From: Haliovirga abyssi
Lineage (GTDB): Bacteria > Fusobacteriota > Fusobacteriia > Fusobacteriales > Haliovirgaceae
Direction of reading: 5' to 3'
Assembly: GCF_030295325.1 (NCBI RefSeq)
Contig: NZ_AP027059.1
Location: 1,732,637-1,796,636 of the forward strand
Length of the DNA stretch: 64,000 nucleotides
Of this stretch, positions 3,190 through 20,439 are shown in pieces. Under the pieces are notes generated by a model that was not told the DNA's origin, made no database searches, and saw nothing but the letters and a program-made list of their open reading frames with translations. Within the stretch, counting starts at the first letter, position 1. The number at the start of each line of letters is the position of its first letter. The translations under genes and the position numbers were made by a program.

Positions 3190-3322
3190 CCTATAACGGT
3201 TTTCGTGTCAAACGAAATCAATTAGACGGTTAGCGGAACAATCAGCGGATAGCTAAAGGGCGCACGTTAGACAAGATTAGGGGACGCGACCGCGCTCAAC
3301 AATCTTGGCTAGCTGTTATGAC
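3190..3322 (-). other. attC-like recombination site A (end of cassette 3)
   Basis: Imperfect, relatively GC-rich inverted repeat after the last gene of the cassette. Read on the minus strand it starts at the outer arm GTCATAAC (complement of 3315-3322) and ends at CGTTATAGGC (complement of 3188-3197), matching the AAC...GTT arms of attC. Inside are nested helices: CAGC..TAGCTAA with TTGGCTAGCTG, and AAGATT with AATCTT (near 3273 and 3300). The outer arm is the exact reverse complement of the 5' end of the same cassette at 5057-5064, and similarity continues about 12 bp further. The inner half (3200-3240) has extra hairpins. Confidence 0.65.
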
Positions 3323-3362
3323 TCGTAGGCAGACTGGTTTTTATCAAAAATTATTATTACAC

Positions 3363-3995
3363 TTATTTTTCACTTTTTTTTAAAATATCAATTCCGTTTT
3401 GCACTGCATTAATTGAAAAAGCTTGATAAATATTATAAAAGAATAGTAACATTTCAAAAAATAGATAAATATTTGCAATCAAGTAAATTGTAGTAAAAAA
3501 TATTTTAATCAGTATCTTTATTTTTGAATTTAATGATTGTAATGATATTACAACCATAGAATTATTAAGCAAAAATATAATGATAAAATTAAAAAATAAA
3601 AGTATCAATATATATATACAAATTCCCAAAAACTGATAATTATATATTTTAAACTTACTAGTATTATTTTGCGAATGTACCAATAATGTTTTTAGTATAT
3701 TTTCTCCAAGTAGGGCTTGAAAAATAGCATAACCTGTAAAAACTAGTGTGATAAAATACAATGATATATTATTAAGATGACTTACAATTTCTTTTATTTC
3801 TAAAATATATTTATTTGAATTTACTTCTATAAAAGTCATTAAAAATATAAAGAATAAAAGAATTATTAGCATAAGAAGAGTCTTTGGTTTAAATGACAAA
3901 CTAAACGTTGAACAAAAAGATTTTTTTATGACTTTTTCAAAAGAGTCTTCAAGCATTAAGTCTTCAAGACTTTTGGTCAGTTTTTCTTTTATCAT
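3363..3995 (-). CDS. Four-helix integral membrane protein, cassette gene
   Basis: A 210-residue protein I do not recognise. A charged N-terminal 35 residues precede four clear hydrophobic segments at about 38-58, 75-98, 120-145 and 160-190, followed by a short cytosolic-type tail ending KKSEK. The start has AGGAGAAAAAGG upstream and lies 10 bp after the stop of 4006-5004, so the two genes are translationally close and in the same cassette. A soluble protein paired with a small membrane protein is a common layout in anti-phage modules, where the membrane partner is the effector. That role is inference only. Confidence 0.7.
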   Translation of the reverse strand: MIKEKLTKSLEDLMLEDSFEKVIKKSFCSTFSLSFKPKTLLMLIILLFFIFLMTFIEVNSNKYILEIKEIVSHLNNISLYFITLVFTGYAIFQALLGENILKTLLVHSQNNTSKFKIYNYQFLGICIYILILLFFNFIIIFLLNNSMVVISLQSLNSKIKILIKIFFTTIYLIANIYLFFEMLLFFYNIYQAFSINAVQNGIDILKKSEK

Positions 3996-4005
3996 CCTTT
4001 TTCTC

Positions 4006-5004
4006 CTATCTATTATTTAACATCATTAGAAATGCAGGGTTATTAAAAATTCTTTCAATTCTCCATAAATTATTTTCATAAATATCTTTATTTTCTTTGC
4101 TTAATCCTCTCATCTCACTTTTACTTAATCTAGCCTTTTCTATTAATAAATTTGTATTTTCAACTTCCGAATTATGTTCAGGCAACTCAATTATTAATTC
4201 TTCTTTATATTCCTCTTCGCTTACTACTGCAGATTGTCCACTTTTGTCAACTCCTAAAATTTTGGACTTAGCAGTACCTTTTGTCCCTTCAACAAGATTA
4301 GCTACTTCATCATAATTTTTTGGGCTATTTATAGAAACATTCCCTGAATTTGCTTTTAATATTTCAATCTCTTCTCTAAAAGAATTAAAAATATCATTTA
4401 CAATAACTTCTCCATTTAATGGATAAATTTTCAATTCAATTCTATTTATTTTTTGAAGCTCTTCAAGTTGTTTTCTTAATTTTTCTTTTGATGGAAAAGC
4501 AACAATATTTAAACTAATATCAGGTAATAAAGAAATTTCCTTTTCTTCATCTTTTTCAAGTTTTTTTCTAATTTTATTTTCTTGTCTAATATATTTTTTT
4601 ATTATGCCTTTTGTATGAGTTTCAAAATTCTTTATTGTAGGACTTCCTTTTTGATTTTTAATTAATATTAGTCTATGATTACTTAATAAAATTATAAAAA
4701 GGGAAAATGGTGCGGTACTGTATATTTCATTTTTTTCAATCAACTGTCCATCTCTTAGATCAGATTTTATTTCTAATTCTGTCTTTTTTACAAAACAGCC
4801 TTTTAAAGCATATTCATCTCCAAATTTTATTATTTCAATATCTTTAAATGCAAAATACTTATTTTTTCCCGATTTATTAATTAATTCACTTTTTAATGCT
4901 GGATAAATAATTGTATCAAAATAATTTAACATTGGTTCATTTTCTTCACCAAAAGTACAGTTAAAATTTGCTACATTATAATACTTAAACCCTTTTATAT
5001 TCAT
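4006..5004 (-). CDS. Unknown soluble protein, cassette gene
   Basis: A 332-residue protein without recognised domain, signal peptide or membrane segment. Residues 1-135 look like mixed alpha/beta with short strands (FGDEYALKGCFV, FSLFIILLSNHRLILIKN). Residues 135-165 are highly charged and probably coiled coil. A second folded part spans about 170-230, then a Gly/Ser/Lys-rich linker and a C-terminal helical piece with LSKSEMRGLSKENKDIYE. It is the first gene of a two-gene cassette whose 5' boundary is the G^TTATGAC core at about 5063. The downstream partner is the membrane protein at 3363-3995. Confidence 0.7.
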   Translation of the reverse strand: MNIKGFKYYNVANFNCTFGEENEPMLNYFDTIIYPALKSELINKSGKNKYFAFKDIEIIKFGDEYALKGCFVKKTELEIKSDLRDGQLIEKNEIYSTAPFSLFIILLSNHRLILIKNQKGSPTIKNFETHTKGIIKKYIRQENKIRKKLEKDEEKEISLLPDISLNIVAFPSKEKLRKQLEELQKINRIELKIYPLNGEVIVNDIFNSFREEIEILKANSGNVSINSPKNYDEVANLVEGTKGTAKSKILGVDKSGQSAVVSEEEYKEELIIELPEHNSEVENTNLLIEKARLSKSEMRGLSKENKDIYENNLWRIERIFNNPAFLMMLNNR

Positions 5005-5056
5005 TTTTCCTCCTCAATTTTTTTCTAGTAAGAATAGTAACTAAGTTTGCCTATGT

Positions 5057-5145
5057 GTCATAACGTGCTTATAATTAGACAATGCCTTTGAGTGAGGTAC
5101 AAACCACCGAAAAGATATTGCTTTAGCATTGTTATACGACGTTCA
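5057..5145 (-). other. attC-like recombination site B (end of cassette 2)
   Basis: On the minus strand it runs from the arm CGTATAAC (complement of 5131-5138) through a perfect 7-bp helix, ACAATGC with GCATTGT, to the arm CGTTATGAC (complement of 5057-5065). The first arm is the exact reverse complement of GTTATACG, the 5' end of the unit at 6722 and below. The second arm donates the 5' end of the next unit. The spacing of the two helices and the unpaired bases between them are as in attC sites. It separates the DUF4062 gene from the next pair of genes. Confidence 0.7.
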
Positions 5146-5212
5146 GTTTGTGATGTCGTACTTCTTTATTCACAAAATTACTATATTTACTTTGCTTATT
5201 ATTTTATTAAAT

Positions 5213-6094
5213 TTAGAGATTAATTTGATTAATTTGATTTGTTAATATAGAAATAATTTTATCACCATTCACCCAAAATGCATTAAAAGATTTACTGCCA
5301 CCTAAATAAACTTGATGGTTTTGAATTCTTTTGAGTTCTGTAATAACTTTTATTAACTCTTCCTTATTTGGTAATTCTATATTAATTTTGCCCAAAAAAT
5401 AAGTTAATTCAGATTGAATCTGTTCTAATATATATTTACCATCGTCAATAGTATAAGTTCCCGAGTCTTTTTCAGTAATCCAATCTATTTTAAAAGAATT
5501 AAAATTTTTTTTTAATTCTTTTAAAATATAATGATTATTATCAAAATTATTTTCAAATTTTGTTTGTATATTGTTTTCAAAAGTATTTGATAGATTTTGT
5601 GCTACTAAAGTTAAGTGATTATTAATTTTACTTTTAAATTCTGAAATACTTGAAAAATTATCTACAACTCCTTGTTCATAAAGGTAATTTTTAAAATTAG
5701 TTAATTTTTCATATTGTAAACTATCTATACTTGAAGGAACAATTGGTGTATTTGAAAAATAAATCATTGTTTTTTTATCGCTACTGATAAATTGATTAAT
5801 TTCTTCAATAGTTCCAGATTCTTCAACACCAGTTGGAGTCCCTAATCTTGTCCAAAAAACTCCAATAAGAATATCACAATCATTTACAATTTGTTCATTA
5901 ATAATTTCCTGTGGTCTTCCTCCTAATTCAGGAGTTACATTTGCTTCCCACATTACAGGAGAAAACATAATTTTATAATGAGTTGAATTAATCATGTTCC
6001 AATTAAATATTAAATTTTTAAGTTCTTCCCTCTCTTGCGAAACATCTGACGGTGAAGCAATTAAAATTTTGTAAACAATACATTCATATGACAT
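5213..6094 (-). CDS. DUF4062 domain protein, cassette gene
   Basis: The first 140 of 293 residues match DUF4062: KILIASPSDVSQEREEL at the N-terminus, a VMWEANVTPELGGRPQEIIN stretch, then NDCDILIGVFWTRLGTPT and GTIEEI. In other proteins this Rossmann/TIR-like module sits in front of signalling or STAND-type NTPase domains. Here the remaining 150 residues are helical and contain no P-loop, so it is a short stand-alone form. AGGAGGACAAA precedes the ATG. DUF4062 genes recur in cassette arrays and defence loci from general knowledge; the function of this protein is unknown. Confidence 0.8.
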   Translation of the reverse strand: MSYECIVYKILIASPSDVSQEREELKNLIFNWNMINSTHYKIMFSPVMWEANVTPELGGRPQEIINEQIVNDCDILIGVFWTRLGTPTGVEESGTIEEINQFISSDKKTMIYFSNTPIVPSSIDSLQYEKLTNFKNYLYEQGVVDNFSSISEFKSKINNHLTLVAQNLSNTFENNIQTKFENNFDNNHYILKELKKNFNSFKIDWITEKDSGTYTIDDGKYILEQIQSELTYFLGKINIELPNKEELIKVITELKRIQNHQVYLGGSKSFNAFWVNGDKIISILTNQINQINL

Positions 6095-6144
6095 TTTGTC
6101 CTCCTATAATTTTTTATTTTTGTGGCTTGCTGAATCGATGTAAA

Positions 6145-6230
6145 TATGTCGGTTGGCATTGATTTATGCGACTGTCCCATTCAGATTTTACTTGCATCTC
6201 TGCCTAGAATGCCAAACGCCGAATGACATA
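6145..6230 (-). other. Imperfect hairpin C between two cassette genes
   Basis: A strong bulged stem: TTGGCATT (6153-6160) pairs with AATGCCAA (6208-6215), flanked by outer arms ATGTCGG (6146-6152) and CCG-AAT-GACAT (6218-6229), with three unpaired bases. The layout is attC-like, but the outer arms read TATGTC/GACATA where attC sites have AAC/GTT. The arms agree with each other and not with the 5' end of the preceding gene. It is either a divergent attC or a hairpin internal to a two-gene cassette. Confidence 0.5.
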
Positions 6231-6264
6231 GATGAAGTGTGGTTTTCATTTTATCTATCTAGTA

Positions 6265-6678
6265 TTAGGTGAAGTTTTTTCTTAATTCTTTAGAAAATTC
6301 AATTCTTAATAGCTTTACATTTTCTCTAACCTCTCCTCGCCATTTCTTTAAATTGTTTACTCTACCTAATTTCCTCTGTAAAAAATATTGAAATAATTTT
6401 TCCATTAAAATCTCAATGTTTTTTGGTGCAACTCCATCAATGTAAAGTATATGTATTTTCTGAGATGCTACTCTGATTTCGTCTGGAAATGTATTATAAT
6501 CATCTCTATTAGTTGCTGATACCAAAGAGATGAAAAAAGAAAAATTTTTGTATTTCTCATTTCTTATCCAAAGATTGAGGTCGCGCCTTCTTTGTAATCT
6601 ATGATTAGCTATAAGAGAAACAACTTGCCCAGCAAGACCACCAGCAAGTAGTGAAGATAGAATTTGATTTAGTTCCAA
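6265..6678 (-). CDS. Small membrane-anchored protein, cassette gene
   Basis: A 137-residue protein of unknown function. The TTG at 6676-6678 is taken as start because AAAGGAGTG lies 8 nt upstream; an open frame continues higher to 6753 but runs into the attC-like site. Residues 5-25 (ILSSLLAGGLAGQVVSLIAN) form one membrane segment, followed at once by a basic HRLQRRRDL stretch and a soluble helical domain ending in a basic tail. Single-helix proteins of this form are common in integron cassettes. It probably belongs with the DUF4062 gene, since cassette-end complementarity joins the two. Confidence 0.7.
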   Translation of the reverse strand: MELNQILSSLLAGGLAGQVVSLIANHRLQRRRDLNLWIRNEKYKNFSFFISLVSATNRDDYNTFPDEIRVASQKIHILYIDGVAPKNIEILMEKLFQYFLQRKLGRVNNLKKWRGEVRENVKLLRIEFSKELRKNFT

Positions 6679-6713
6679 AATAAACACTCCTTTAAATTTT
6701 AATATACTAAATA

Positions 6714-6802
6714 TCGTATAACGGATTTGCAGACAGACGCAGTCTATGAACATACAGCAATAGCGTAGTGAGAATAAATTGAGTCTGCTGACATGTTAGT
6801 AG
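6714..6802 (-). other. attC-like recombination site D (end of cassette 1)
   Basis: The clearest site. Minus strand: outer arm CTACTAAC (complement of 6795-6802), spacer, inner helix GCAGAC (complement of 6783-6788) pairing with GTCTGC (complement of 6729-6734), spacer, then CGTTATACG (complement of 6715-6723). The outer arm is the reverse complement of GTTAGTAG. The sequence AGTAGAA stands at the start of the same cassette (8335-8341), directly after the group II intron, which explains where the GTT went. It begins 13 bp past the stop codon of the PIN gene. Confidence 0.75.
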
Positions 6803-6814
6803 AAGTGAATCTTA

Positions 6815-8305
6815 TTAAAAGTCTAGCTCTTCACTACAAGAAGTACAAAATCCATTTAACGCATCAAATTCTCTGGATTTTTTTAAACCGCATGCAGGAC
6901 AAACAAATCCATTTGAATCATCATTCATACAGCTATTACAAATAGGCTCCCCTCTACTATTAAAAAAAATACCTTCATTTTTTCCGCATTCAACACATAA
7001 ATCAGCACTATCTGTAAAACTTTCTTCTTCCATTTCTATATAAATATCATCAATTCTAATTTCATAATTTTCATTTATGTCATCAGAAAATAATTCAATT
7101 TCTCTACTAATTTCAATATCAACATACCCCTTTAAATGATGAGTTATTGTGTTATCTGATAAAATAACCTCTTTTGTATCAGAATCTCTTCCCCAATATA
7201 TCCTTGAGAAGGCATCAAGTTTTATTTGAAATTTTAATTTATAATTAGCCTCACCAAACTCATAACCTTCAAAACTATATTCTAATAAATTGATTTCATC
7301 TATTTCTTCAGATAACTCAAACTCTGAACCATCATAATTTGATAAACTTGACGTATTTACATAAGATTCACCAGAGTAAATTAGCTTCTCATTTATTATA
7401 TTTTGAATATCTCCGCTCTCAATTAAAGAGTTGATATAATCATCTAAATTGAATTTAAATATTACATCTACTTTATCTGGTATTGATAAATTTAAGATTC
7501 TTGACATATTTATATAAAACTCTTCTGAATTTAATCCAATAATTTTTCGTTTTGTATAATCTTCAAATTCTTTAGTTAATTGTTTATGAAACGTTTTCCC
7601 GTTTTCCCACCAATCTTCTTTGACATCATCTGTTACAAATATTAAGTTTTTATTATTTTTCTCAGCATATTTTAAACATTCTTTCCATATAATTAAGTCA
7701 TTGTATTTATCAATTCCATCCTTTGATTTTTCATCTTTAAAACCAGGAGGGACTTGTTTTTTGTATCTAGTTTTTCCTTCTTCACAAATTTTATATAGTT
7801 CGTTAATGCTAAGTTCAGGAAAATATCGATTTAAATCTTCCATGTTTACAAAAAACTTTTTAACTTTATCTTCTGAAAAAATATCATCACTTATATTTTG
7901 AAAAATGTCATGATTTTCTACATATTCATCTAAAGTAAAAATTATTTCATTAAATTTACTTTCAATATTTTCTTTCAATTCATTGATATTAGGAAACTTA
8001 AATCTCTCAAGAATTAATAATTGCTTATTAATTCCTTCTTTTGAACTTTTGATTTTATTTTCAAACTCTTTTGGAATGTTCTTATACTTCTTTTTTTGAC
8101 GTCCTAAAGCAGATTGATTATTTCGTGAAAATTCTCTTTTTACAGTTGCTGGAATCATTATTTTGTCTTTGAGTTTCTCTAATAAATTAATAAAAAAATC
8201 CCCAATTTCTGGAGAATATTCGTATATATTTAAATAAACACTACTATCCAATATTATTATATAATCTTCTTCCATAAATTTATTGATTTCATTTTCTAGC
8301 TTCAT
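6815..8305 (-). CDS. PIN-like nuclease with C-terminal zinc ribbons, cassette gene
   Basis: A 496-residue protein. The N-terminal 260 residues resemble the PIN_8-type PIN-like domain: IIILDSSVYLN with the first acidic residue, a helical insert with SRNNQSALGRQK, a second acidic site in DKYNDLIIWKECL, and LIFVTDDVKEDWW with the last. A middle beta-rich region follows, and the tail has two Cys4 modules (CVEC..CNSC and CPAC..CTSC). The start is the ATG at 8303-8305, after AGG; an upstream GTG frame to 8392 would translate intron domains V and VI and is rejected. It is probably an RNA- or DNA-cutting accessory protein. Confidence 0.8.
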   Translation of the reverse strand: MKLENEINKFMEEDYIIILDSSVYLNIYEYSPEIGDFFINLLEKLKDKIMIPATVKREFSRNNQSALGRQKKKYKNIPKEFENKIKSSKEGINKQLLILERFKFPNINELKENIESKFNEIIFTLDEYVENHDIFQNISDDIFSEDKVKKFFVNMEDLNRYFPELSINELYKICEEGKTRYKKQVPPGFKDEKSKDGIDKYNDLIIWKECLKYAEKNNKNLIFVTDDVKEDWWENGKTFHKQLTKEFEDYTKRKIIGLNSEEFYINMSRILNLSIPDKVDVIFKFNLDDYINSLIESGDIQNIINEKLIYSGESYVNTSSLSNYDGSEFELSEEIDEINLLEYSFEGYEFGEANYKLKFQIKLDAFSRIYWGRDSDTKEVILSDNTITHHLKGYVDIEISREIELFSDDINENYEIRIDDIYIEMEEESFTDSADLCVECGKNEGIFFNSRGEPICNSCMNDDSNGFVCPACGLKKSREFDALNGFCTSCSEELDF

Positions 8306-8395
8306 GTTATTCCTAACTCCCTTCATAATTAGATTTCTACTGTAGGGTCGAGCTCGGATGCACATCCAAACTATGTTTTCAGACCCCGCCACCTC

Positions 8396-8428
8396 AAACC
8401 GTACGTGCGGTTCTCCCGCATACGGCTT
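8396..8428 (-). ncRNA. Group II intron domain V
   Basis: A 33-nt hairpin on the minus strand opening AAGCCGTATGCGG, loop GAGAA, closing CCGCACGTACGG. It carries the catalytic AGC triad and the 2-nt bulge of bacterial domain V. The catalytic core is intact although the intron is truncated at its 5' side. Confidence 0.85.
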
Positions 8429-8476
8429 TCCTATTAACTTCTTTTCAAATCATATAAGTTTATTCTGGTATAACTT

Positions 8477-9283
8477 TCACTCTGGTATATATTTTACTTT
8501 ATAGTTATCAAATAACCCTATTTCATTATATAACCAATCATTACTCCATCTTTTCCAACCATATCCCTTTTTTCCTCGTTGCTTCATTAGGTACCTTCTC
8601 AATTTCTTCTCCACATAATTTCTTACATATGAAAAACACTTTGATGAGTTCCCTATTGAAAAATAATTTACCCACTCTCTTAATGTTGTATTTAGCTCAT
8701 TTACCAGTATTTGAAATATTCCTAGTGTTCTATGTCTTCTTACTACTTCTTTTATCTTTTCTAACAATCCTTTCCTCTTCTTTGATTGTGGTATTGTCAG
8801 TATTCCCCATTTCCCACTTTTATTCCTTCGCCTTTTAATTATAAATCCTAAAAAGTTTATTACCCCACCTTTTTTCAAATCTACTACTCTTGATTTCTCT
8901 TTATTTATTGTTACCCCCATTTTCTCAAATTTTTCTTTCAACCTTTCAATTACCTTACTTAACAACCTTCTCATACTTGAATGACTTGATACTGTTACTA
9001 CTAAATCATCTGCGAATCTAGCATAATCTAGCTCATAATATTTACCTTTTTGCTTGGTTACTTCTTTTGCTTTTTCTAACATTTTATCAATATCATTTAA
9101 ATATAAATTTGCAAATAACAGGGATATTACTCCACCTTGTGGCACTCCTGCTTTTCCACTAGCTTTTAATATCAATTTTATTAAATATAATACTTCTTTA
9201 TCTGATATTTGCTCCGATATCTTCTTTAACAATATATGGTGTTTTACTGTATCAAAGTAATTTGATACATCTAAATCGCTCAC
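8477..9283 (-). pseudogene. Group II intron reverse transcriptase/maturase, N-terminally truncated
   Basis: The 268-residue open frame starts inside the reverse transcriptase at the RT3-like block (DLDVSNYFDTVKHHIL). It continues through GVPQGGVISLLFANLYLND and the active-site YARFADDLV, then the thumb, and ends with the group II maturase (GIIM) domain (REWVNYFSIGNSS, and GKKGYGWKRWSNDWLY). About 80-100 residues with RT0-RT2 are missing, and upstream the frame meets TAG five codons above KRKWKV. The GTG at 9283 is not a convincing start. The family can splice and retrotranspose; this copy should not be autonomous. Confidence 0.85.
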
Positions 9284-9406
9284 TTTCCATTTCCTTTTGG
9301 TATCTCTTGTTTCCTATCCTTTTTGGGTTTATATATCTTTTATACTCTTCTTGTTTTTTTTTAAAATTATTTTAATAAAGTTACTCTCTGTCTTTATCTC
9401 CCTTAA

Positions 9407-9436
9407 ATTCTACTATATTTATTCATCCTATGTCAA
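9407..9436 (-). promoter_or_regulatory. Strong promoter facing the intron remnant and cassettes
   Basis: Minus-strand TTGACA (complement of 9431-9436), 18-bp spacer, TAGAAT (complement of 9407-9412), followed by a GGGAG that precedes no gene. It may drive the cassette genes, as an integron Pc promoter would, or be what remains of a deleted upstream gene. Confidence 0.55.
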
Positions 9437-9619
9437 TGTTTATCCAACGTCTTTATGTTTAATGCTTCACCAATTTAATTAATTCTTTATTATAACTAAA
9501 TTTAACAAATATTATCTTTTGATTTTTATATAACACTTTCTTAAATCAAATCTAAACTAGAATTTTTAATCACTTCTCAATATTTTTTTAACATTTTGCT
9601 AAAAAAATATTAAAAAAAA

Positions 9620-9669
9620 CAGCACAACTTATTTTCTAAACAAATTTATACTTTACTAAGTAATAAAAT
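9620..9669. repeat. Dispersed repeat, copy 1 (TTATTTTCTAAA family)
   Basis: The segment CACAACTTATTTTCTAAACA and its continuation through AAATTTATACTTTACTAA match stretches at 48344-48393 and 61453-61500. All three copies are intergenic, in the same orientation, about 50 bp long. Confidence 0.65.
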
Positions 9670-9784
9670 TATTTTTATTTACTTCAAAACTTTTATTACA
9701 GTAGCAATATTTTTCTGCTATCAAATCATTATGTTCCTGCAAATCCACAGGAAATATATTTTCAATCTATCTATCCCCATCCAA

Positions 9785-9817
9785 AAAATCAAAAACAGGT
9801 GGTGGAGCCACCTGTTT
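9785..9817 (-). terminator. Terminator of the MacB efflux operon
   Basis: Ten-bp stem, AAACAGGTGG (9793-9802) with CCACCTGTTT (9808-9817), loop of five. On the minus strand it is followed by TTGATTTTTT, so it ends transcripts coming from the genes above 10224. Confidence 0.8.
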
Positions 9818-9924
9818 CATTTGGGGAATGAAAAGAAAAGCTCGTAGAAATTTTCCTTTATCAAAAATATACTTAATTTATATTAATAATTTATTATACT
9901 CCTCCATAAATCTTCTGTCAAACC

Positions 9925-10000
9925 TCACTTTTGTCCCAAACAGATATTTTTCCGACCTGAACAGGCACTTTTATGACTCAAATAGATACTTTTATGTCTT
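9925..10000. repeat. Degenerate 21-bp tandem repeat
   Basis: About four imperfect units of 21 bp. On the minus strand each resembles AAAAGTATCTGTTTGRGTCA. One minus-strand frame reads KYLFES-stop-KCLFRSEKYLFGTK, so the period equals seven codons, but stops interrupt it and no start is seen. Confidence 0.5.
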
Positions 10001-10223
10001 AAACTAAAAAATTTAATTTTTTTAAATATCCCTCTTAAAAAAATACAGTATAAAATAATTATAAATTTTTAATATGAGTATAACCCCAGATAATCACTAA
10101 CTTCTATTCATATTCTTACTCCCTCAATCTTTTCTTAGTGTAACTTAGCGTCCTCCTTTCTTTGTGCTGAAATTATTTCCCCCCAAAAAAGTTAAAACTA
10201 TAATCAAAACTTATTCTCAATTT

Positions 10224-11432
10224 TTACTCATACCTAAGCGCATCTATAGGATTTAATTCCGAAGCTTTTTTAGCAGGATATGTCCCAAATATCACTCCAA
10301 TTCCACAAGATACAACTATAGCTAATATTAATATAAAATAATCTATAATTGGTTTTATTCCAATAAATGTTCCTACTATATTGCTTAATAATATTCCTAA
10401 TATTATTCCAATTATCCCTCCTAAAACACTCAGAAATATTGCTTCAATTACAAATTGAAATAGTATATCTATCTTTTTTGCTCCTAACGCTTTTCTTATT
10501 CCAATCTCTTTTATCCTTTCGGTTACACTTACAAGCATTATATTCATTATACCTATTCCGCCTACAAATAAGGATATTCCAGCTACAGATGTCAAAAGTA
10601 GCGATAATGTAGTAAGTATTTTATTAAATGAGTCTAATTGCGAAAATTTAGCTGAAACTTCATATATATCTTTTTTATTATGATTTTTTTCTAATAAATC
10701 CACTATCTTACCAGATGTATCATCTTTTTTATTAACATCATTTACTAAAATAGTTATAGAAGATATTTGTACATCTTCTACATATTTTTGAAAAGTAGTA
10801 TATGGAATATAAAATTGATAATATTCTCTCCCAAATGAACTCATAAGAGCTTTCATTTGATTTTCAAATACTCCTATAATTATAAATCTAGACCTGTTTT
10901 TTTTCTTAAATTGAAGCTCAACTTCCTCTCCAGCTACATCTAGTCTTCCAAATTTTTTCATAGCATACAAATCATCCACTAATATATATTTCTTACTTTT
11001 TTCTATATCTCCTTTAATAAAACTTCTTCCATATATCATATTTAAACTGTTAATGTCTTTCACATATTCATTAGAAGATGAAAGCCCTCCAAATCCTCTT
11101 GTTTTTTTAGTAATTGCTACTCTCATTCTTGTATGCATTGAAGGAGATATTGCTTTTACATTCTCTAATTTTTTTATTTGCTCAATATCATCTTTTGTTA
11201 TATAATCTCTTTTTGTTAATATTTGGTCTTTAGATTGAACAGATATAGTAACTTTTTTATCTGCCAATTCTATTAAATTCCCAGTTATTGACTGCTGACT
11301 TCCTTTTCCTATCATAGAAATCATTATTACAGATGATATCCCTATTATAATTCCAAGCATAGTTAATAAACTTCTTATTTTATTACTATTTAAACTTTTA
11401 ATCGCAAAATTTATTATCTCTATAAATTCCAT
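10224..11432 (-). CDS. MacB-type ABC transporter permease
   Basis: A 402-residue FtsX/MacB-type permease. One N-terminal membrane helix (LLTMLGIIIGISSVIMISMI, about residues 21-42) is followed by a periplasmic MacB_PCD domain of about 240 residues. Three C-terminal helices (about 275-300, 325-350, 360-385) surround the conserved VTERIKEIGIRKALGAKK. In MacAB-TolC systems the permease does not move substrate through its own membrane helices but drives export from the periplasm. It is split from its ATPase (11588-12262), whereas E. coli MacB is one chain. GAGGTG precedes the ATG. It is the last gene before the terminator at 9785. Confidence 0.9.
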   Translation of the reverse strand: MEFIEIINFAIKSLNSNKIRSLLTMLGIIIGISSVIMISMIGKGSQQSITGNLIELADKKVTISVQSKDQILTKRDYITKDDIEQIKKLENVKAISPSMHTRMRVAITKKTRGFGGLSSSNEYVKDINSLNMIYGRSFIKGDIEKSKKYILVDDLYAMKKFGRLDVAGEEVELQFKKKNRSRFIIIGVFENQMKALMSSFGREYYQFYIPYTTFQKYVEDVQISSITILVNDVNKKDDTSGKIVDLLEKNHNKKDIYEVSAKFSQLDSFNKILTTLSLLLTSVAGISLFVGGIGIMNIMLVSVTERIKEIGIRKALGAKKIDILFQFVIEAIFLSVLGGIIGIILGILLSNIVGTFIGIKPIIDYFILILAIVVSCGIGVIFGTYPAKKASELNPIDALRYE

Positions 11433-16585: not shown

Positions 16586-16618
16586 ATAAAAATCCTGATT
16601 TTTTTTTCAGGATTTTTA
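16586..16618 (-). terminator. Terminator after the DUF4139 gene
   Basis: AAAATCCTGA pairs with TCAGGATTTT (16607-16616) around an eight-base loop, with T-rich flanks on both sides. It stands between the DUF4139 gene and the sigma operon and may work in both directions. Confidence 0.75.
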
Positions 16619-16623
16619 TTTCT

Positions 16624-16650
16624 CCCCTTCTCCTAAATTAGGAGAAGGGG
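16624..16650. repeat. CCCCTTCTCC palindrome
   Basis: CCCCTTCTCCTAA / TTAGGAGAAGGGG forms a 27-bp nearly perfect palindrome, followed by ACGGGGGATGAGG. Unusually GC-rich for this window. Similar sequences occur as dispersed repeats in many bacterial genomes; only one copy is seen here. Confidence 0.55.
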
Positions 16651-16720
16651 ACGGGGGATGAGGTCTATGCCTCTAATTAAAATTCTTAACACACTAACAT
16701 TAACTTTTTAATAAATTCAA

Positions 16721-18052
16721 CTACCTTTTCACCCTATAAGTAAATTTCAAAACATAAGTAGAGTCTCTATTTATATCTATTGGAAAAATAATTTTTTTAA
16801 TACTATCTTTAACATACTTTGTATTAGAATTCAACATTTCCCAATCGCCATACAAACTATGCTCTATATTTATTTTTATTTTTTCATTTTTATGATTTTT
16901 TATTGTATATTTTATAGTTTTTTCATATATTCTTTTAGATATCTTTTTATAATTAATCTCTTTATATTCAACCTTAACATCAAAGACTTTTCCTGCTACA
17001 ACTTTTATATTTTCATCTTTTGGAGTGTGATTTATTCTATCTTCTCCAACAAATTCACTGCTATTATCTTCTAAATCTTTTTTATATATCTTTATTTTCC
17101 CTTTTGGAAATGCTATTCCCAATCCATTATTTTTACTATTCTCAAATGAAACTATAACTTTTGTCTCTTTATTTGTATTACTATATGAATAATATTTTTT
17201 ATATTTAATATTATTTCCACTTATAAATTTTATTTGTTTTGATTGATTGTTTTTTACATTCAAATTTCTATTTAAAGTATACATATGATAATCAAAAAAA
17301 CTTTTTTCTTTAAAATTGTCTTTTGGAGAATTTGAAGCAAGCATACTTCTTTTCATTAAAAATAACCCTTCATTATTATTAGCTCTATTTACATCTCCTG
17401 CTATTAATTTTAATTTTGTATTTTTATAATCTTTTCCAGAATTATTATTTATATTTACCCATCCAATTAAATTTAGTCTCTTATTTTCTAAATTTATAAC
17501 ATAATTTGCTTCCCATTTTATTCCCTTTGTCAAATAAGATACTTCTAATTCATTACTAGAAGTTCCCTCTTCAATATCCCAGATTAATGCTGGTTTTAAT
17601 CTTAATCCTTCTATCATTTTAGGAAGTATTATTTTATCTACCCCAACTCCAAGATATATTTCACCGCTTTTTTTATCTTTTAAAACTATTCCGCCTTTTA
17701 CACTTAATAAAGTACAGTTTATTTTAGACTTATTTTTTGTGTATATTACATCTTCGCCTATATATTTTTCTAATAATTTATTCATACTAACTAAATCATA
17801 CTCATAATTTAAAGATAAAATATTAACTCCGTTAACAATTATAGAATCAGGCTCTATTTTTTGAGCTACATCTAAATAATTTATAATCTTCTCGCTGTTT
17901 GAAATATTTGAACTATCTCTAATTTCCCTAACTAATCCAAAGCCACCATTATATATTGTTAAACTGTTTTCTTGGATATCTTTTGAAGTAGAACTATATT
18001 CTGCAAATGCCATATTACTGATAATCATTAATAATATTAATATTCTTTTCAT
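16721..18052 (-). CDS. DUF4139 domain protein, exported
   Basis: A 443-residue secreted protein: signal peptide MKRILILLMIISNMAFA, then the DUF4139 pattern with SLTIYNGGFGLVREIR, an LDVAQKIEPDSI region, ELEVSYLTKGIKWEANYVI and GWVNINNNSGKDYKNTKLKL. The C-terminal half has the beta-rich repeats with KRIYEKTIKYTIKN. No enzyme motif is visible. Such proteins are frequent in outer-membrane bacteria, with unknown function. It stands alone between two terminators or promoters. Confidence 0.8.
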   Translation of the reverse strand: MKRILILLMIISNMAFAEYSSTSKDIQENSLTIYNGGFGLVREIRDSSNISNSEKIINYLDVAQKIEPDSIIVNGVNILSLNYEYDLVSMNKLLEKYIGEDVIYTKNKSKINCTLLSVKGGIVLKDKKSGEIYLGVGVDKIILPKMIEGLRLKPALIWDIEEGTSSNELEVSYLTKGIKWEANYVINLENKRLNLIGWVNINNNSGKDYKNTKLKLIAGDVNRANNNEGLFLMKRSMLASNSPKDNFKEKSFFDYHMYTLNRNLNVKNNQSKQIKFISGNNIKYKKYYSYSNTNKETKVIVSFENSKNNGLGIAFPKGKIKIYKKDLEDNSSEFVGEDRINHTPKDENIKVVAGKVFDVKVEYKEINYKKISKRIYEKTIKYTIKNHKNEKIKINIEHSLYGDWEMLNSNTKYVKDSIKKIIFPIDINRDSTYVLKFTYRVKR

Positions 18053-18102
18053 TGTTACGCCTCCATTTTAATTTATTTTTATAATGCTTTTGAAATAAGG
18101 AA

Positions 18103-18654
18103 CTACCCTACAACCAATATCTTCACACCTATTCCGATTAATATAATCCCACCTATAATCTCTATTTTATTTCCAAATAAATCACCCAATTTATTCCCAA
18201 GATATACACCAATTACAGAGATGAAAAATGTAACTATCCCAATTATCACAGATGGCTCCATTACATCTATTTTTAATAATGAAAATGTTACTCCCACTGC
18301 TAAAGCATCTATACTAGTAGCTATTGCCAATAATAATAAATTTATCATACTCAAAACATCTTTTTTAGCTTCTGATTCCTCTATTACAAATGATTCATAA
18401 ATCATTTTACCTCCAATAAAAAGCAACAATAAAAATGCAACCCATCTTGAATATTTACCAGCATATTTCACAAAACTATTCCCTGCAAGCCATCCTAAAA
18501 TTGGCATTATAGCCTGAAACACTCCAAAAAAACTACCTATTTTTATAGAATGTCCTATTTTTAAATTTTTTATTGCAATTCCACTTGAAATCGAAACTGC
18601 AAAAGCATCCATTGCTAGCCCTATCGCTATTAATAAAATTGAAACTAAGCTCAT
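18103..18654 (-). CDS. mntP: Manganese efflux pump MntP (YtaF-like)
   Basis: A 183-residue, six-helix membrane protein of the MntP family. It shows the two related halves with the characteristic Asp motifs, GLAMDAFAVSISSGIAIK near the N-terminus and ATSIDALAVGVTFSLL in the middle. The family exports Mn(II). The start is the ATG at 18652-18654 with AAGGA eight nt before. An open frame continues up to 18729 without a better start. A 7-bp inverted repeat lies in the leader at 18690-18709. No yybP-type manganese riboswitch is seen. Confidence 0.88.
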   Translation of the reverse strand: MSLVSILLIAIGLAMDAFAVSISSGIAIKNLKIGHSIKIGSFFGVFQAIMPILGWLAGNSFVKYAGKYSRWVAFLLLLFIGGKMIYESFVIEESEAKKDVLSMINLLLLAIATSIDALAVGVTFSLLKIDVMEPSVIIGIVTFFISVIGVYLGNKLGDLFGNKIEIIGGIILIGIGVKILVVG

Positions 18655-18689
18655 AATCATAATCCTTTCTAAATCACATTTGTAATTAG

Positions 18690-18709
18690 GAACATTTTTA
18701 ATAATGTTC
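18690..18709. promoter_or_regulatory. Inverted repeat upstream of mntP
   Basis: GAACATT and AATGTTC separated by six bases, about 36 bp before the mntP start. There is no T run after it, so an operator is more likely than a terminator. The binding protein is unknown. Confidence 0.35.
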
Positions 18710-18749
18710 ACATCTATAAAATTCACCAAAACTACTTTTTTATATCTAA

Positions 18750-19463
18750 CTATTTTTTTCCACCATAAACAGAGTAATTATAATATTTCCATATTACATC
18801 AATATCTTTAAACCCTATTTCTTCAAGCCAATTCAAATGATTTATCAATGTAGTTGGGCTATCTTCTTCTTGATATTTTTCTAACCAAATATTTTCTATC
18901 TCATCAATCGAACAACTTTTTTTCATAAATTCTATCCATTTATTCATATAAACATCTTGAACTTTATAATTAGAACCTAAAACTACATCTGCATTATAAA
19001 ACACTCCATTTTGAGATAAAGCATTATAGATTTTGTTATAAAATATTTTTTTATCCTCGTCTGTTACCAAATGATGTAATGCTAGTGAAGATAATATAAC
19101 ATCATATTTTTTTAAAAATTCGAAATTATAGAAGTCTCCAACATAATAATCGACATCATTATATTTTTCCAACTTGATTTTAGTCATCTCTATCATATTT
19201 TTAGACAAATCAACCGCAGTTAATTTAGCATTAGGAAATTGTTTTTTTACTTTATCAAGTATATTACCTGTTCCGCATCCTAAATCTATAACCTCTATTT
19301 CACTATTTTTCTCAAAAGGTATAGATAAAATTAATGCTTCAAGCATTTCTTTATAAAATGGAATCAATTTCAGTATTATTCCATCAAACTCTTTAGCCTC
19401 TTCTTCAAAATGATTTTTTATTTTGTCAATTTTCTTTTTTTCTTTCATTTCAATTATCTTCAT
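18750..19463 (-). CDS. Class I SAM-dependent methyltransferase
   Basis: A 237-residue methyltransferase with motif I VIDLGCGTGNILDKV, motif II LTAVDLSKNMIEM, an acidic YYVGDFYNF loop and a VILSSLALHHL post-II strand. The layout matches the ubiquinone/trans-aconitate-type small-molecule methyltransferase group, but the substrate cannot be told. The start overlaps the end of the RhuM-Fic gene by 14 bp, so the two are probably translated from one mRNA. A second ATG lies five codons in. Confidence 0.88.
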   Translation of the reverse strand: MKIIEMKEKKKIDKIKNHFEEEAKEFDGIILKLIPFYKEMLEALILSIPFEKNSEIEVIDLGCGTGNILDKVKKQFPNAKLTAVDLSKNMIEMTKIKLEKYNDVDYYVGDFYNFEFLKKYDVILSSLALHHLVTDEDKKIFYNKIYNALSQNGVFYNADVVLGSNYKVQDVYMNKWIEFMKKSCSIDEIENIWLEKYQEEDSPTTLINHLNWLEEIGFKDIDVIWKYYNYSVYGGKK

Positions 19464-20439
19464 TTATCAAATTCACCAACACTTTCACAATAATATCTTT
19501 TTCTTGCGGTCTACTTTCTGCTATCATAAGTGTAATAGCCACAAGTGCATTGTCAGCTATTCTTTTGCTCCCATCTTCCTTATAAATTATATTATTAATT
19601 CTCATAAAATATATAAATATTGCAGCTGCAATTCTTTTATTCCCATCTGAAAAGGAATGATTTTTCACAACAAAATATAACAAATTAGATGCTTTTTCCT
19701 CTATACTTGGATATACTTCTTCTCCAAAAGCCGTTTGATAAATTGCCCCTAATGAACCTTTAAAGGAATCATCTTTTTCATTACCAAATAAATCACTTGG
19801 AAATTCTGATTTCATACTTTCTATTACTTTCATTGCTTCTTCATATCTTAATATATACGCTTCTTTTTTTGTAGTTTTTCCAATTTGTAATATCTGATGA
19901 TCATATTCATCAAGTATAGTAAGAGCATATGTATATTCGGAAATTACTTTTAAAAGACCTTTTGCTTCTCCTAATTCTATTTTTTGATTTTCAATAGTTC
20001 TATTTAATATTTTCATTGTAGTTTGCAAATCTTTTAACTTTTGATTTTGTTCTTTTAGTCTTTTTTCATTTATTGTATATCCGTTTATCAAATGTTGTTT
20101 TAATAGATTTGTTGCCCAAATTCTAAATTGAGTACCTCTTTTTGAATTCACCCTATAACCTACTGAAATAATTAAATCTAAATTAAAATATTCTATTTCT
20201 CTTTTTACTTCTCTTCCGCCTTCACTTTGAACTGTTGCAAAAAATGCAACAGTTGAATCTCTCATTAACTCTTCACTATTATAAATATTTCTTATATGTC
20301 TCGAAATTACTGATTTATCTCTTTCAAATAAGTCAGAAATTTGATTTAAACTTAGCCATACAGTCTCCTCTTTTAAATTAACATCAATAGAAATATCCCC
20401 ATCATCTGTTTTATAAAACATTACCTCTTTATTCTCCAT
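19450..20439 (-). CDS. RhuM-Fic fusion protein
   Basis: A 329-residue protein with an N-terminal RhuM block (VWLSLNQISDLFERDKSV, YRVNSKRGTQFRIWATNLL), a coiled-coil linker at about 130-165, and a C-terminal Fic/DOC domain with NHSFSDGNKR. Fic enzymes usually AMPylate or phosphorylate proteins; the intact H-x-F-x-x-G-N-(K)-R motif indicates an active enzyme. RhuM-Fic proteins are often toxins or defence components. A second, broken copy lies at 24766-25572. No separate antitoxin gene is next to it. Confidence 0.88.
   Translation of the reverse strand: MENKEVMFYKTDDGDISIDVNLKEETVWLSLNQISDLFERDKSVISRHIRNIYNSEELMRDSTVAFFATVQSEGGREVKREIEYFNLDLIISVGYRVNSKRGTQFRIWATNLLKQHLINGYTINEKRLKEQNQKLKDLQTTMKILNRTIENQKIELGEAKGLLKVISEYTYALTILDEYDHQILQIGKTTKKEAYILRYEEAMKVIESMKSEFPSDLFGNEKDDSFKGSLGAIYQTAFGEEVYPSIEEKASNLLYFVVKNHSFSDGNKRIAAAIFIYFMRINNIIYKEDGSKRIADNALVAITLMIAESRPQEKDIIVKVLVNLINEDN

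Follow-up and report, generated by a model that had tools for sequence, protein, structure and literature searches.

A decayed integron array in Haliovirga abyssi and its most likely integrase, an Xer-like recombinase without the I2 insertion

Results

The window carries gene cassettes, attC sites and recombinase remnants

A 64-kb stretch of the Haliovirga abyssi genome (contig NZ_AP027059.1, positions 1,732,637 to 1,796,636; hereafter the window, whose positions serve as coordinates) carries gene cassettes bounded by attC sites, the recombination sites of integrons, together with remnants of a tyrosine recombinase gene. We refer to this cluster as array 1. All of its parts lie on the minus strand (Table 1). 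Read downstream along that strand, fragments of the recombinase region are followed by the 3' part of a group II intron, a PIN-like gene and attC site D, then by a segment of two open reading frames (ORFs) with a DUF4062 gene, attC site B, a two-ORF cassette and site A. In cassette 2, the start of the first ORF overlaps attC D, and an unscored inverted repeat lies near 6130-6250 between the two ORFs. Neither ORF of cassette 3 has a Pfam match.

Table 1. Features of array 1 (window positions) and further attC-bearing regions of the chromosome (contig C1).
Feature	Position	Strand	Evidence or remark
Decayed copy of the recombinase upstream region, extending into the gene	9645..10016	-	72.7% over 374 bp to L032 6971-7289
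Fragment of the recombinase gene (family without I2)	9320..9475	-	85.6% to L032 7332-7490
Group II intron, 3' part, with reverse transcriptase ORF 8477-9283	8342..9283	-	RF00029, RVT_1, GIIM
Cassette 1 body: PIN-like gene, 5' end AGTAGAA at 8335-8341	6815..8341	-	PF18476; end match
attC site D	6716..6801	-	R3 40.8 bits, E 2.3e-7
Cassette 2 body: ORF 6265-6753 and DUF4062 gene 5213-6094	5213..6722	-	Pfam; PADLOC PDC-S60
attC site B	5058..5137	-	R3 31.0 bits, E 5.4e-5
Cassette 3 body: ORFs 4006-5004 and 3363-3995	3363..5064	-	ORF calls
Site A: cassette 3 outer arm (3315-3322) fused to decayed mini-cassette	3190..3322	-	no attC score
Array 2	C1:65-86 kb		large array
Array 3	C1:1833-1841 kb		large array
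Two extra attC regions	C1:1112-1118 kb, C1:1455-1456 kb		found by R1

An earlier note, made from the letters of the window alone, had proposed an integrase-less integron cassette cluster with three attC-like sites. To score such sites we used covariance models, namely R1, trained on arrays 1-3 of this genome, and the broader R2. As the training set of R1 included site D, this model was unfit to test D, and we therefore built R3 from 14 sites elsewhere in the genome, none of them from the window. R3 found B and D with significance in the window, the sole further match at E ≤ 10 reaching 10 bits; genome-wide it returned 19 sites at E ≤ 1, of which 14 were the training sites. B and D thus give the window two attC sites, the minimum of the integron architecture (at least two attC). 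Across 12 aligned attC sites, 10 of the 18 consensus pairs have changes on both sides. The cassette cluster of the earlier note is thereby recovered with a window-free model, and the sequence strings it quoted are present where it placed them. Its grounds for dropping the proposal would have been that none of the sites scores as attC and that no strain lacks the units at precisely these boundaries; B and D both score. Its third site fared worse. Site A reaches 12.5 bits (E 8.5) with R1 and has no match with R3, although its outer arm GTCATAAC is present. This arm is followed by a decayed copy of an ORF-less mini-cassette (3229-3311), which aligns to a mini-cassette of array 2 (L032 10444-10350) with 76% identity over 95 bp. 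Site A is thus a rearranged site and no longer an intact attC. Single-strand folding, which the note had suggested as a check, was mixed: the bottom strand of D folds as an attC hairpin and B folds in its inner stem only, but the folding energies of A, B and D are on both strands no better than those of shuffled sequences (z from -0.01 to -1.14) and hence uninformative.

In integrons, the 5' end of a cassette is complementary to the outer arm of its own attC. The earlier note had claimed this for the window and held chance agreement to be unlikely, and both statements extend to a larger set. Over 16 cassettes of three arrays, delimited by hand and with cores placed by hand under an end-matching rule already known, the 5' end matches its own outer arm at 8.7 of 12 positions, compared with 4.5 for other arms, a value reached by none of 100,000 permutations; the set includes two cassettes with a poor end fit (A2c10 with 2/4 and A3c1 with 3/4 core positions). 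The window cassettes show exact runs of 7, 6 and 5 positions after GTT, and the match of A1c3 reaches 18 positions with mismatches.

The end at 8335-8341 is without GTT owing to a group II intron lodged between GTT and AGTAGAA. This intron gives the only Rfam match in the window (RF00029 at 8342-8430, 45.1 bits) and has a 96% copy in array 2, where it follows the GTT of one attC and precedes ATATGAC, with which the 5' end of the next cassette continues. Its 3' junction in the window is of the same kind, the intron ending immediately ahead of AGTAGAA. A search of the window for the 5' consensus of group II introns found nothing. Group IIC-attC introns share the insertion in the attC core, but those described in PMC7923331 lie opposite to the cassettes, whereas the intron here is collinear with them and sits between GTT and A of the top strand. 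Separately, what appears to be a second, different group II intron follows attC 2f in L032 (~16590 to 19000).

Remnants of one recombinase lie upstream of three arrays

The chromosome has five attC-bearing regions in all. Pieces of one tyrosine recombinase lie upstream of arrays 1, 2 and 3 alike: the window keeps two fragments, array 3 has a fragment, and array 2 retains an ORF of 186 residues in which the catalytic domain is kept and the N-terminal part is gone. Arrays 2 and 3 have an attI site in common (97% over 65 bp). Compared around the GTT, the two arrays are 92% identical over the 65 bp before it and 54% identical over the 300 bp after it, shuffled DNA giving 51-54%; being alike up to GTT and then unlike, they have the layout of a single attI followed by first cassettes that differ. 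No attI was found in the window, where the corresponding stretch is deleted.

We searched for canonical integron integrases (IntI) with TIGR02249 at its cut-off of 265 bits, with IntI1 and three of 32 array-bearing genomes (see below) as positive controls. No protein of this genome exceeds the cut-off, and neither does any in the 98 genomes of its phylum, Fusobacteriota, among which it is alone in its genus and family. The term "integrase-less" therefore holds for canonical integrases, but it overlooked the decayed non-IntI recombinase just upstream; the array is without an integrase because that integrase decayed. The integron system in the window is dead, and the integrase is broken in this genome. 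Three other genomes of the phylum (G001, G087 and G058) have one or two attC matches each (loci L075, L076 and L077), and a search at E ≤ 1e-30 found no recombinase of the family in them.

The recombinase family lacks the IntI-specific insertion

To characterize the recombinase, we collected the best 80 of at least 553 relatives, one genome per species, as family loci; two of them are archaeal (L080 and L087). Eight relatives that were scanned comprise 336-456 residues, all with Phage_integrase and SAM-like domains; in three of them HARP is matched weakly at the N terminus. With TIGR02249, scores lie at 206.7-225.5 bits for a set of 13 full-length proteins, made up of 12 family members and L042, which is more distant, compared with 508.6 bits for IntI1; all of the 13 fall below the cut-off of 265 bits for the IntI family. 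Among curated models, NF040815 ("site-specific tyrosine recombinase/integron integrase") ranks first for 11 of the 12 family members, and 10 of the 12 pass its cut-off.

Aligned to VchIntIA (2A3V), the relative from G140 has 14 residues where IntI has 56. In the two alignment blocks found only in IntI, the family has medians of 2 and 0 residues (at most 6 in each) versus 32-34 and 10 in four canonical IntI. The IntI-specific insertion I2 is thus missing from the family. The motif ALxxKYP occurs in all four canonical IntI and in none of the recombinase ORFs of the 80 loci. In a quick tree of 79 rows, calculated without bootstrap and from the 64 of 80 family proteins free of internal stops, the family side (67 rows including L042; SH-aLRT 98) stands apart from canonical IntI (99) and Xer-like proteins (95). 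Judged from sequence, we assign the recombinase to an Xer-like family without the IntI-specific I2 insertion.

The family is associated with attC arrays across phyla

Around the family loci, 641 kb of upstream and 315 kb of downstream flanking sequence were scanned. R1, which was trained on this genome only, gave 24 matches at E ≤ 10; all 24 are downstream of the recombinase and 21 are collinear with it. For 14 of 21 R1 matches, a significant cassette start was found upstream (p ≤ 0.005). R2 gave 98 matches at E ≤ 1. Among the 86 outside its training set, 78 are downstream (72 collinear) and eight upstream (8/8 collinear). The R2 matches fall into 32 loci, 25 of which have a non-training match, and cover 13 named phyla (two archaeal) in addition to two unassigned loci. 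Where at least 2.5 kb of downstream sequence was available, 26 of 35 loci have an R2 match. An all-phyla attC alignment (A3) was discarded owing to misaligned Bacteroidota sites.

A model-free test led to the same association. In 20 of 50 loci, a start 30-170 bp past the stop codon matches a downstream outer arm with a score of at least 8, a value reached by 0/50 when starts from other loci were used as control. In nine loci of other genomes, the distance from the matched recombinase coding region to the start of the first cassette is 88-128 bp, and this start mostly follows a TATRAAYRA-like motif. In 25 of 80 loci the contig or locus ends no more than 400 bp from the recombinase on its downstream side, and in three of 80 on its upstream side, as expected if repeats break assemblies. 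The same recombinase family, an attI-like start and cassettes are also found in G098, which belongs to the same domain only. The Chryseobacterium plasmid region has no attC with R1 and one with R2.

In whole-genome searches of the 32 array genomes, which are of unreported completeness and many of which are bins, a canonical IntI over the cut-off was found in three (those of L089, L100 and L118) and in none of the other 29. Isolates among those without IntI over the cut-off are Halonatronum, Tissierella, Halanaerobacter, Alkaliphilus, three Halanaerobium, Pelobium and Flavobacterium terrae. Two bins, labelled Caldisericum (L084) and Aminicenantes (L086), are 97% identical over 300 bp before attI and different thereafter; this likeness reflects either mis-binning or a platform that was transferred recently.

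Homologous cassettes occupy different positions in Halanaerobium

The comparison of strains proposed in the earlier note was made on Halanaerobium, which has a system of this kind. Three strains with the name Halanaerobium saccharolyticum, each counted as a species of its own in the one-per-species collection, are collinear in their recombinase and attI regions. The sequence beginning at attI in strain MSL 17.2 (L125:11141) shares 80-86% identity over 300 bp with sequences that begin at the GTT of an attC in the two remaining strains (L141:11768, L128:16006 and L128:16939), whereas the 100 bp before these GTTs agree at 44-52%, the level of unrelated DNA. Conversely, L125 and L141 are 96% identical over the 100 bp before attI and 56% over the 300 bp after it. 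As the homology starts exactly at the GTT of attI or attC, homologous cassettes sit at different positions in these strains, with breaks at GTT. Over the region matched, the integrase frame is open in L125 and in L128; in L141 the integrase has a frameshift near its end. The pair L097/L098 was rejected as support for an exact boundary, as its divergence begins before the presumed attI.

Many attC sites of the family have no bulged base

Canonical IntI is described as reading attC through extrahelical bases docked by I2 (PMC7790495), and the extrahelical G has been called absolutely conserved (PMC2727003). Enzymes without I2 would accordingly be expected to work on attC that often lack such bases. 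Of the 34 model-free family sites, 27 were kept for a survey and seven dropped for being short or having a stem score under 7. No bulged base was found over 12 pairs of the L stem in 17 of the 27, and 10 are perfectly paired. The spacers are 5 nt and 1 nt long in 15 of the 27, with a script that slightly favours 5/1 (0.2 per nt). The 18 sites of this genome are mixed, five being without a bulge. An unpaired central spacer can still impose polarity when extrahelical bases are missing, according to PMC2727003. From the many unbulged L stems and the 5/1 spacer we infer that strand choice in the family comes mainly from the asymmetric spacer, the contrast in bulges being drawn against published descriptions of canonical attC.

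Cassette cargo and neighbouring genes

Matches to defence models were obtained for several of the 19 cassette proteins that were scanned: two CBASS cyclase-effector pairs, bSEFIR, PDC-S66 (in our reading a TIR protein), PDC-S60 (the DUF4062 protein of the window), and a type I methylase and a specificity subunit accompanied by an NsnA-like protein. The region at C1:1112-1118 kb holds a cassette of ~5.5 kb (L073 9853-15389) with type I restriction-modification genes and an NsnA-like gene, whose ends match at 18 of 21 positions by eye; this is unusually long for a cassette. At the other extreme, ORF-less mini-cassettes (L032 ~10348-10545 and L034 ~1358-1436) have long complementary ends and almost no body between start and attC. 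By eye, L074 7090-11518 contains an ORF of 952 residues resembling a polymorphic toxin and a small next ORF directly before an attC, beyond which lies a cassette bounded by attC that carries a 2'-5' ligase-like gene. The 297-kb second contig has three related genes for tyrosine recombinases within 14 kb (G000:C2 224072-237862), one of them shorter and the other two nearly identical to each other. In the window, RhuM-like proteins are encoded at 1035-2048 (Pfam RhuM match) and 19450-20439 (labelled by eye). A plasmid search with the window returned short matches only, mostly DUF4062 genes and intron pieces.

Discussion

We consider it probable that the window holds a decayed integron array and that the Xer-like recombinase without I2 was its integrase. 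Cassettes, each a gene with its attC, would have been captured at an attI just downstream of, and collinear with, the recombinase gene. The enzyme would have joined the folded bottom strand of attC to attI at GTT, which implies that a recombinase without I2 may catalyse attC recombination and use single-stranded attC. In the window, attI has been lost by a deletion that also took what remained of the integrase and the 5' portion of the group II intron.

Several findings weigh against this reading. I2 has been held necessary for cassette capture in PMC7790495, which leaves room for a canonical IntI that worked in trans or has disappeared since. R2 found no site in the window, and the one member of the recombinase family that this genome still has is missing its N-terminal part. 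Most of the loci come from metagenome bins; nine of the 35 loci with enough downstream sequence are without an R2 match, and seven of 21 R1 matches have no significant partner upstream. In the model-free test, a reverse-complement control still scored at least 8 in 5 of 50 loci, scores that direct repeats could give. Of the 66 loci offering 140 bp or more, only 15 have the strict attI motif (L078, with a shorter sequence, has it too), for which reason we relied on the motif-free end test.

The array might instead be an ordinary cluster of attC sites lacking an integron integrase (CALIN). In that case a canonical IntI, working in trans or no longer present, would have supplied the cassettes, and the Xer-like recombinase would be an unrelated neighbour. 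CALINs are reported to be common (PMC9024848, PMC9668308), the recombinase of the window is itself broken, and three of the 32 array genomes have both a recombinase array and IntI. We nevertheless regard this as unlikely, since it does not account for a recombinase immediately in front of attI in two of the arrays here, for the distance of 88-128 bp to the first cassette at nine loci elsewhere, or for the lack of an IntI over the cut-off in the remaining 29 array genomes and in the 98 genomes of the phylum. A different possibility is a convergent system that is no integron, in which a dif/Xer-type or insertion-element recombinase acts on double-stranded sites and the attC-like hairpins are its targets. 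An XerA-type model (NF040815) as top curated match of most relatives and the bulged bases missing from many L stems would fit such an enzyme, but the attC layout and the GTT boundary fit integrons, and we judge it very unlikely. That terminator hairpins and short repeats came together by chance with no cassette system at all is practically negligible: the uninformative folding energies of the window sites would agree with it, and the E-values of the window-free model, the permutation result and the covariation all contradict it.

A decayed array with an integrase lacking I2 compares as follows with known systems. It shares with canonical integrons (class 1, Vibrio type) attI, attC with R and L boxes, the own-arm end match, the GTT boundary and cassettes mostly in one orientation; it differs in that its integrase has no I2, in that the integrase gene lies upstream of and collinear with the cassettes, and in its many unbulged L stems. 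With two attC and no intI, the window would also pass as a CALIN as defined by IntegronFinder, but it adjoins remnants of a non-IntI recombinase, and relatives elsewhere keep the recombinase in place. Ghaly 2022 (PMC9668308) reports six IntI and 539 attC in 75 archaeal genomes, most arrays being CALINs. Those archaeal integrons likewise have attC arrays and an attI just downstream of the integrase, but their IntI is described as having the IntI-specific domain, whereas L080 and L087 have a recombinase without I2 in place. A further likeness, drawn by description, is to an integron-like subgroup of tyrosine recombinases in which the insertion is not fully conserved (PMC8138268); there the insertion is called essential for integron function, whereas here members without I2 sit at attC arrays. 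In open-access PMC text we found no link between recombinases without I2 and attC arrays.

Taken together, our data most likely reveal a second branch of integrons, without I2 and with attC that often have no bulged bases. With some reserve, we favour the wider view that a second integrase family without I2 runs integrons across bacteria and archaea on attC often free of extrahelical bases, with polarity from the 5/1 spacer. In the origin of integrons, such a family could stand for the intermediate that is missing or for a parallel solution, and it would explain part of the CALINs. In the IntegronFinder 2.0 study, complete integrons are described as only rare in Bacteroidetes and Firmicutes (PMC9024848); our results suggest that integrase searches demanding the IntI-specific domain would report integrons of this branch as CALINs. 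Integrons with an I2-less integrase would be a widespread kind, of which the window holds real but decayed cassettes. According to the accepted view, integrons arose when an Xer-like recombinase gained I2, and intermediates are stressed as lacking (PMC7790495). With cultured strains of Halanaerobacter, Halanaerobium, Halonatronum and Pelobium carrying the family, its presence at attI-attC arrays makes the question of integron origin directly testable.

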